DNA of 28,438 nucleotides, taken from a virus. Positions 6,016 to 26,979 of this stretch are shown here, piece by piece. Positions within the stretch are counted from its first letter, which is position 1; every line of letters begins with the position of its first letter. A program made the translations under genes and the position numbers. The notes under the pieces are model-generated. The model was not told the DNA's origin, ran no database searches, and worked only from the letters and a program-made list of their open reading frames with translations. The stretch spans positions 1 to 28,438 of IMG/VR virus record IMGVR_UViG_3300004806_000067. One strand, written 5' to 3'.

Positions 6016-6369
6016 TTATGGTGTGATGCCAATAACACCAGTAACTCCTGGTGATACGTGTATAACTCCTTCCAAAACTCTTGTGACGTTTTGGCTAGGG
6101 TCTATCAAAATCACATCATAAACAAGCTTCCCAGCAGGAAGATTGGCGGTTGTAGCTGAATTTGCTGATAATTGGATGATACCATTTGCTGAATCGTAAA
6201 TGGATGATGTAAATTGTAATGCTATATTACTTGTGTAATATGATTTTTTGGCTTGGGATTGTACCGAAAACGAATAAAGATTATATCCAACAGAATTGGC
6301 ATCATCTAAAGTTATTTGGGTTGTGAAGGTTTCACCCTGATTGATGAACTGGTCTTGGTAAGCAGCCAT
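6016..6369 (-). CDS. Small beta-sandwich virion protein, 117 residues ('NQGETF' type)
   Basis: The protein begins MAAYQDQFINQGETFTTQIT and continues through alternating beta-strand-like segments (YNLYSFSVQSQAKKSYY, GKLVYDVILIDPSQNVTRVL) to EGVIHVSPGVTG. From memory this layout matches a small structural protein family widespread in T4-like marine phages, whose members start with an I(D/N)QGETF-like strand and end with V(V/L)EG.V.V.PGVT. Its place between the adhesin block and the giant fibre suggests a connector or baseplate-to-fibre adaptor, but that is inference. The start at 6369 has the best ribosome-binding site of the left half: GAGG at 6378-6375, 5 nt from ATG. That site lies inside a hairpin (see the leader feature), so translation is probably controlled. 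Confidence 0.75.
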   Translation of the reverse strand: MAAYQDQFINQGETFTTQITLDDANSVGYNLYSFSVQSQAKKSYYTSNIALQFTSSIYDSANGIIQLSANSATTANLPAGKLVYDVILIDPSQNVTRVLEGVIHVSPGVTGVIGITP

Positions 6370-6458
6370 GGAGTCCTCATTAATTATTCTTATTATGAGG
6401 TTATTTAGTCAACAGAATGTCTTATGTCCAGGAGTAAAAACGCTTTTTGGACTCCTGG
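6366..6458 (-). promoter_or_regulatory. Structured leader with alternative hairpins over the ribosome-binding site of the 117-residue gene
   Basis: Read on the minus strand there are three competing pairings. (a) CCAGGAGT (6458-6451) pairs with ACTCCTGG (6435-6428); the stem extends through AAAAA/TTTTT with a two-base CC bulge and a GCG loop. (b) CCTCAT (6400-6395) pairs with ATGAGG (6380-6375), which hides the GAGG ribosome-binding site. (c) The 5' arm of (a), CCAGGAGTCC (6458-6449), can instead pair with GGACTCC plus TGG (6376-6366) with one bulged A, covering both site and start codon. ACTAAATA (6409-6402), six of eight matches to the T4 late promoter TATAAATA, lies between arms; a start about 5-7 nt downstream would lose the 5' arms of both sequestering structures. 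This resembles known T4 leaders in which read-through transcripts are untranslatable and late transcripts are translated. Pairings are seen; function is inferred. Confidence 0.5.
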
Positions 6459-6469
6459 AAGTCGTCTGA

Positions 6470-6505
6470 AAAATTTCTAGCCCCGGACAAGGATTTTGAA
6501 ATTTT
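6470..6505 (-). other. Inverted repeat at the end of the 145-residue gene, weak terminator-like
   Basis: GAAATTTT (6498-6505) and AAAATTTC (6470-6477) on the plus strand are perfect inverted repeats of 8 bp around a 20-nt loop that contains CCCCGG. On the minus strand the 3' arm ends in a short T-run (ATTTTTC), and the stop codon of the 145-residue gene (6504-6506) lies at the outer base of the 5' arm. The stem is AT-rich and would be weak, so this may be a poor terminator, an mRNA-end stabiliser or chance. The rest of the 134-bp gap is covered by the leader entry. Confidence 0.3.
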
Positions 6506-6941
6506 AGGTATTTGCTATTGGTAAAGCAACTTGCATAATTTGTGACAAATCAACTGGATTAGTTTGTAACAAACCAAAACTTATCAAAGTATTTGCTAAA
6601 TCAGATTTTTGTTGTATTTCTCTATTTCTAACTAATTGTGCTCTGATATTTTCATCCAATTCAGTTGATTTAGGTCTTAAACTAAATCTTGTAGTTGTAA
6701 TAGGTTTGTTGACCAAATCAGCAATGAAAGATAAGTCTGTTTCAGAATCACTTCTTGCTTGTACAATTTCAACAGGAGTTGTATATTGTTTAATAAGATG
6801 TTCTAACTCTTGCTGATTTTTTGGTAAAGGTGCCACCAATGAAATGTTTATAATTGCTGGGTGGTTGTCAAAAGTCACACCAAGCATCCTATTATTTGCA
6901 TCAAAATTTACAATAGTGTAATTTACTGTATTTGCATCCAT
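6504..6941 (-). CDS. Hypothetical protein, 145 residues, between putative adhesin and fibre genes
   Basis: I do not recognise this family. The N-terminal half looks like mixed beta structure (NYTIVNFDANNRMLGVTFDN, AIINISLVAP), followed by a helix (NQQELEHLIKQYT). The C-terminal half is charged and helical (STELDENIRAQLVRNREIQQ) and ends in a hydrophobic segment. It differs from its neighbours in lacking Asn/Gly/Thr repeats, so it is unlikely to be a fibre shaft. Small genes directly after an adhesin or fibre in T-even phages often encode fibre-assembly chaperones; that is a positional guess only. A possible ribosome-binding site AAGGA lies about 11-12 nt before the ATG at 6941, a rather long spacing. 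The gene is followed by the structured 134-bp gap. Confidence 0.6.
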   Translation of the reverse strand: MDANTVNYTIVNFDANNRMLGVTFDNHPAIINISLVAPLPKNQQELEHLIKQYTTPVEIVQARSDSETDLSFIADLVNKPITTTRFSLRPKSTELDENIRAQLVRNREIQQKSDLANTLISFGLLQTNPVDLSQIMQVALPIANT

Positions 6942-19807: not shown

Positions 19808-19815
19808 TATTTATT
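19808..19815 (-). promoter_or_regulatory. AATAAATA element just before the gp8-like start
   Basis: AATAAATA on the minus strand overlaps the TAA stop of the preceding gene and ends 6 nt before the gp8-like ATG, where no Shine-Dalgarno sequence is visible. As a late promoter it would start RNA at about the start codon, giving a nearly leaderless message. It may instead be an AT-rich translation-enhancing context. Confidence 0.25.
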
Positions 19816-26971: not shown

Positions 26972-26979
26972 TATTTATC
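26972..26979 (-). promoter_or_regulatory. GATAAATA element just before the gp25-like start
   Basis: GATAAATA on the minus strand fits the loose T4 late form NATAAATA (7 of 8 to TATAAATA). It lies in the 13-bp gap after the spike gene and ends 4 nt before the gp25 ATG. As a promoter it would give an almost leaderless mRNA. Chance in an AT-rich gap is a fair alternative. Confidence 0.25.

Follow-up and report, generated by a model that had tools for sequence, protein, structure and literature searches.

The longest gap between open reading frames in this DNA (positions 6370-6503) raises the question of what its inverted repeats and putative promoter do for the 117-residue gene that follows. The window, i.e., the complete stretch of 28.4 kb that was analysed, is a fragment of a T4-like myovirus from an IMG/VR record, and the source phage is uncultured. 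All long genes are on the minus strand; they encode a gp5-like hub, gp25, gp6, other baseplate wedge proteins, an S74 tail fibre, a glycine-rich fibre and a protein of 1872 residues, and further include the two that border the gap, an orphan 145-codon ORF and the 117-residue gene. Homologues of the 117-residue protein occur in cyanophages, pelagiphages and methylophages, and in cyanophages the matching PHROG families are annotated as L-shaped tail fibre assembly or tail-fibre protein; none were found in bacterial genomes. The 145-codon ORF has no relative in PHROG, Pfam or the viral contigs, and the DNA of the locus shows no direct similarity to isolate phages.

We read the gap, with a probability of roughly 0.6, as a late-operon boundary that combines a promoter for the tail-fibre unit with devices that silence read-through RNA. 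A gp55-type late promoter, ACTAAATA, would start a unit with the 117-residue gene at its head, and the DNA around this promoter would block expression of that gene from RNA entering from the upstream tail genes. In close relatives the device would be a hairpin around the promoter, either terminator-like with the promoter as its loop or hiding the Shine-Dalgarno sequence. RNA started at the promoter would escape such a hairpin because its 5' arm is missing. In the window, the device would be a weak lock in which promoter, 5' arm and 3' arm over the Shine-Dalgarno sequence follow each other as in T4 gene 49, and a conserved 75-nt boundary element just upstream, in place of a terminator, may be part of it. 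The features are listed in the table.

Table. Features in and next to the gap, in window coordinates
Feature	Position	Strand	Basis
117-residue gene	6016..6369	-	PHROG 3304 'L-shaped tail fiber protein assembly' / PHROG 1084; E 2.9e-21 and 7.6e-20
Start codon ATG of the 117-residue gene	6369-6367	-	Read directly
Hairpin 2, 3' arm ATGAGG	6375..6380	-	Covers Shine-Dalgarno GAGG 6378-6375
Hairpin 2, 5' arm CCTCAT	6395..6400	-	Pair probability 0.94-0.95 in read-through RNA; contains the expected start
Probable late promoter ACTAAATA, T4 gp55-type, Aeh1-like CTAAATA	6402..6409	-	NNTAAATA recurrence in homologous leaders
Conserved non-coding element of ~75 nt, window copy	6427..6500	-	nhmmer E 3.8e-14
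Hairpin 1, 3' arm ACTCCTGG	6428..6435	-	Inside conserved element
Hairpin 1, 5' arm CCAGGAGT	6451..6458	-	Inside conserved element
Upstream 145-codon ORF	6504..6941	-	Stop codon abuts conserved ~75-nt element

Direct reading of the minus strand confirmed that the inverted repeats and the ACTAAATA octamer lie where the original prediction had placed them. The promoter is the firmest part of our reading of the locus. Viral contigs supplied 184 leaders of homologous genes, and merging of similar ones left 102 groups, which are not fully independent because of shared ancestry (two that are discussed below, L006 and L248, are close). In 66 of these groups NNTAAATA occurs 12-70 nt 5' of the ATG, compared with 10.2 +/- 3.2 in shuffles, and the nearest homologues have ACTAAATA or GCTAAATA at the same place. 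Many homologues, on the other hand, lack the promoter gap or the hairpin. The window has four inter-gene NNTAAATA sites, all before late structural genes; the other three precede the gp25, gp8-like and 735-residue genes, and those at gp25 and gp8-like are found at the same junctions in relatives. Octamers that resemble TATAAATA, or the Aeh1 form CTAAATA, are thus enriched over chance close 5' of late genes. CTAAATA is the published late motif of phage Aeh1 (PMC1524935, PMC2988020), where it is likewise preceded by A or G; unlike Aeh1, the window and its relatives have both NATAAATA and (A/G)CTAAATA in one genome. The gp55 gene is outside the window fragment. The recurrence at the same place and the match to the Aeh1 consensus indicate that ACTAAATA is very probably a T4-type late promoter, as had been proposed, and T4 spacing leads us to expect a transcript start at about 6396.

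At two other junctions of the window the late promoter is even closer to the gene. The site at 26972-26979 (minus strand) leaves only 4 nt to the gp25 ATG (GATAAATAgacaATG), a spacing kept in 49 of about 56 gp25 copies with the conserved element, and the site at 19808-19815 (minus strand) ends 6 nt before the gp8-like ATG. By T4 spacing, the late mRNAs of both genes would lack a leader or begin at the AUG.

In close relatives, about seven cases of terminator-like hairpins with compensated stems were observed at the 117-residue gene. A hairpin of 7-12 bp has the late promoter as its loop in L006, L248, L010, L007, L001/L008, L216 and L232, and more weakly in L231. A T-run directly follows the G+C part of the 3' arm in six of the eight loop-promoter cases, and a G+C hairpin with a U-run is present in L006, L248, L010, L001, L216 and L232. 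The arms vary between loci yet pair, and every one of the eight inner pairs occurs in two to three Watson-Crick types. When the flanks of the promoter were shuffled, 8 of 66 groups had a hairpin around the promoter at p<=0.005, where 0.3 were expected, and fold z values were about -5 in L006, L010 and L216. Six genomes together have 75 late-promoter-like sites; only four of them reached p<=0.005, and all four were at homologues of the 117-residue gene, so the arrangement is specific to this junction. A DNA scan with CTAAATANATGAGAGG gave 66 matches; because a similar number is estimated by chance alone at that length, it was used only to confirm L006, L010 and L248.

Other relatives arrange the same parts differently. 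The promoter is enclosed by other hairpins in L204 and L199, whereas L055, L058, L057 and L083 have a tandem order, terminator and then late promoter, like that described for the tail-fibre gene boundary at the T4 35/36 junction (PMC1524935; GAGGGACCCTTCGGGTTCCCTTTTTCTTTATAAATA). This differs from L006, L010, L216, L232 and L001, where it is the loop of the terminator-like hairpin that contains the promoter; a scan of the whole T4 genome found no promoter so placed. Gene 36 of T4 has its late promoter after a UUCG terminator (T4 155806-155868, L469:6307-6369), and the same promoter is also in the loop of a hairpin, CCCTTTTTCTTTA...TAAAGGGG, which covers the Shine-Dalgarno sequence. The window leader contains no intrinsic terminator, i.e., no G+C-rich hairpin with U-run, and its promoter is not within a strong hairpin.

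What the window does have at this position is the 75-nt element, located between the upstream stop codon and the late promoter. The leaders L274 and L275 have a long block in common with the window that includes the hairpin-1 region, and of the 118 stretches that a pattern scan found in viral contigs, most contain the ~75-nt block (ttcgaaatttt.cgttCCGgCC..aaAattttc........atccaaaa.TCCAAAAAGCG..TTTACTyctag). These represent about 76 distinct, nearly gap-free sequences, about 56 before gp25 and about 20 before the 117-residue gene, with a few rows manually reassigned. The 5' end is at or within about 10 nt of the upstream stop (stop -54 to -64 from TCCAAA), and the 3' end is 5-33 nt before the late promoter. 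Clustering of the upstream genes, on C-terminal parts only, gave 11 clusters that show no similarity to each other. The copy closest to that of the window is upstream of gp25 in another phage (L335:848-918; BLASTN 85% over 80 nt, 6429-6508), although the gp25 proteins of the two are only 50% identical. Diverged copies were also seen at other gene junctions (L228:750-823 and L298:9998-10069; nhmmer E 5e-9 and 2.5e-8).

A coding function of the element was rejected, as no frame is open across the copies and there is no start. RNAalifold found 0 pairs, folding stability over 73 copies gave no structure signal on either strand (mean z about 0.04-0.24), and Rfam covariance models gave no match for the window or for six loci, at least four of which have the element. 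A BLASTN search with one copy found no match in isolate phages. A prophage or host repeat was also rejected: the only exact match in 84,980 genomes is antisense in a bacterial gene and was taken as chance. By these comparisons the element is conserved as DNA or unpaired RNA, i.e., for its sequence and not for an RNA fold.

Such conservation can also be explained by a reading in which the element, and not the hairpins, is the functional part, as a DNA or single-stranded RNA site that a phage protein recognizes at late-operon boundaries, acting in 3' end formation or as an upstream promoter element. The near-gapless copies that extend from the stop codons of unrelated genes to just before a late promoter agree with this, as do the missing structure signal and the conservation beyond that of gp25. 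However, most late promoters lack the element, and since the search for copies required an exact 16-base core, conservation of the core is built in and only the flanks are independent evidence. The variable distance to the promoter further disfavours a role as a core promoter part. We regard a protein site as a serious possibility, but lean somewhat against it as a replacement for the boundary reading.

Hairpin 1, which the original prediction had used as a switch arm, belongs to this element, and the other copies fold differently. With a dG of -11.5 it is the fifth most stable 36-nt fold of the minus strand of the window; on the plus strand it comes first. Its z of -4.1 is an outlier among the element copies, and hairpin 1 is therefore a peculiarity of the window copy; a conserved RNA structure was rejected on the same comparison, and a terminator because there is no U-run. 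The alternative pairing proposed over the start codon was not borne out either: GGACTCC-A-TGG is complementary to CCAGGAGTCC, but the CCAGGAGTCC/GGACTCCATGG pairing has a probability of <=0.0001 and was rejected.

This leaves hairpin 2 as the candidate lock in the window. All folding was done at 37 °C. The proposal that CCTCAT/ATGAGG hides GAGG holds for read-through RNA, in which the Shine-Dalgarno sequence is predicted to be unpaired with a probability of only 0.003 (occlusion against shuffled upstream sequence, p=0.035), but the stem is weak (dG -6.3, z -2.1), 6 of 200 shuffles are equally good, and 29% of shuffled leaders have a stem of at least 7 pairs over GAGG. Release of the ribosome-binding site in the late transcript is not predicted for the longer RNAs: in RNA from 6396 the site is unpaired at 0.05 when at least 30 nt of coding sequence are included, because GAGGACU pairs with the gene's own codons and the late RNA hides the site again. 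With only 15 nt of coding sequence the value is 0.51, and a lock acting on nascent RNA is therefore possible. The stability of the leader as a whole does not exceed that of dinucleotide shuffles (z -1.13 for 6340-6520 and -1.67 for 6366-6505), a comparison on which the prediction had been staked. These models lend weak support to a translation switch in the window.

The occlusion test was calibrated on known T4 genes. In T4 I-TevII, I-TevI and gene e, a hairpin conceals the ribosome-binding site, and its loop contains or adjoins the late promoter (PMC2988022, PMC3014915). The same test gave unpaired values in late and read-through RNA of 0.85 and 0.00 for gene e (p 0.015), 0.83 and 0.00 for I-TevII (p 0.005) and 0.63 and 0.00 for I-TevI (p 0.02), next to which the contrast in the window is weak. 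T4 soc and 49 were not recovered by the test, so its sensitivity is limited. Gene 49 (endonuclease VII) nevertheless offers the closest order of parts, with AATAAATA directly followed by CCCTTA ... TAAGGG and the 3' arm at the Shine-Dalgarno sequence, compared with ACTAAATA A CCTCAT ... ATGAGG in the window. The two differ in that the late RNA of the window is predicted to refold, and in their setting, a late gene within an early unit for gene 49 and a late operon for the tail-fibre gene of the window.

Relatives with about 68% protein identity to the window (L208, L210, L211 and L212) have TCCTCAT-caACTAAATA...-ATGAGGA, i.e., the lock of the window over the Shine-Dalgarno sequence, but with the promoter inside the loop. 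They closely match T4 I-TevII (CCTCGT-ATAAATATGAAT-ACGAGG), and both leader groups of this type (L208 and L211) gave p about 0.01 in the occlusion shuffle test. The analogy with T4 that had been drawn is supported by these relatives and by the order in gene 49. The arm pair is absent from L006, L010, L274 and others with other arrangements.

These relatives bear on a simpler account, in which the late promoter is the one functional part in the window, CCTCAT/ATGAGG is a chance complement of a purine-rich Shine-Dalgarno sequence, and read-through and late RNA are translated alike. The frequency of equal stems in shuffled leaders, the small difference in exposure of the site between the two RNAs and the unremarkable total fold are what it would lead one to expect. 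It does not account for the same arms in the L208 group at another place relative to the promoter, nor for hairpins around the promoter that recur in many relatives, and we consider it rather doubtful, if clearly not negligible. Finally, a role of the element as a recombination linker for swapping the gp25-to-tail-fibre module between phages is unlikely: two direct copies about 22 kb apart do span gp25 to the tail-fibre junction in G019, G027 and G028, possibly as a module-exchange pair, unrelated upstream families abut the element, and the copy most similar to the window's tail-fibre one precedes gp25 in another phage, but most genomes have one copy only, the two in G025 have diverged (65%), and a linker has no need to sit at late promoters.

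The late-operon boundary thus appears to follow ordinary T4-style logic, plus a variant in which promoter and terminator are fused and a conserved element that is unexplained. There is nearly an even chance, in our estimate, that an uncultured T4-like phage family uses two devices not described before to mark its late-operon boundaries, namely a terminator hairpin with a late-promoter loop and a mobile 75-nt element at the gp25 and tail-fibre junctions. For the promoter in the terminator loop the literature covered was open-access papers, and an earlier description in other phages is possible. The element itself is strongly conserved, non-coding and placed at late-operon boundaries, without an Rfam match and, for the one copy tested, without a match in isolate phages. 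If the boundary reading is correct, the hiding of late genes in read-through RNA known from T4 would reach structural tail-fibre genes and uncultured aquatic phages. It would also have a counterpart at the level of transcription, with one piece of DNA serving as both promoter and terminator: a compact part of 40 nt that would stop the incoming polymerase and start a new RNA unable to form the stop.
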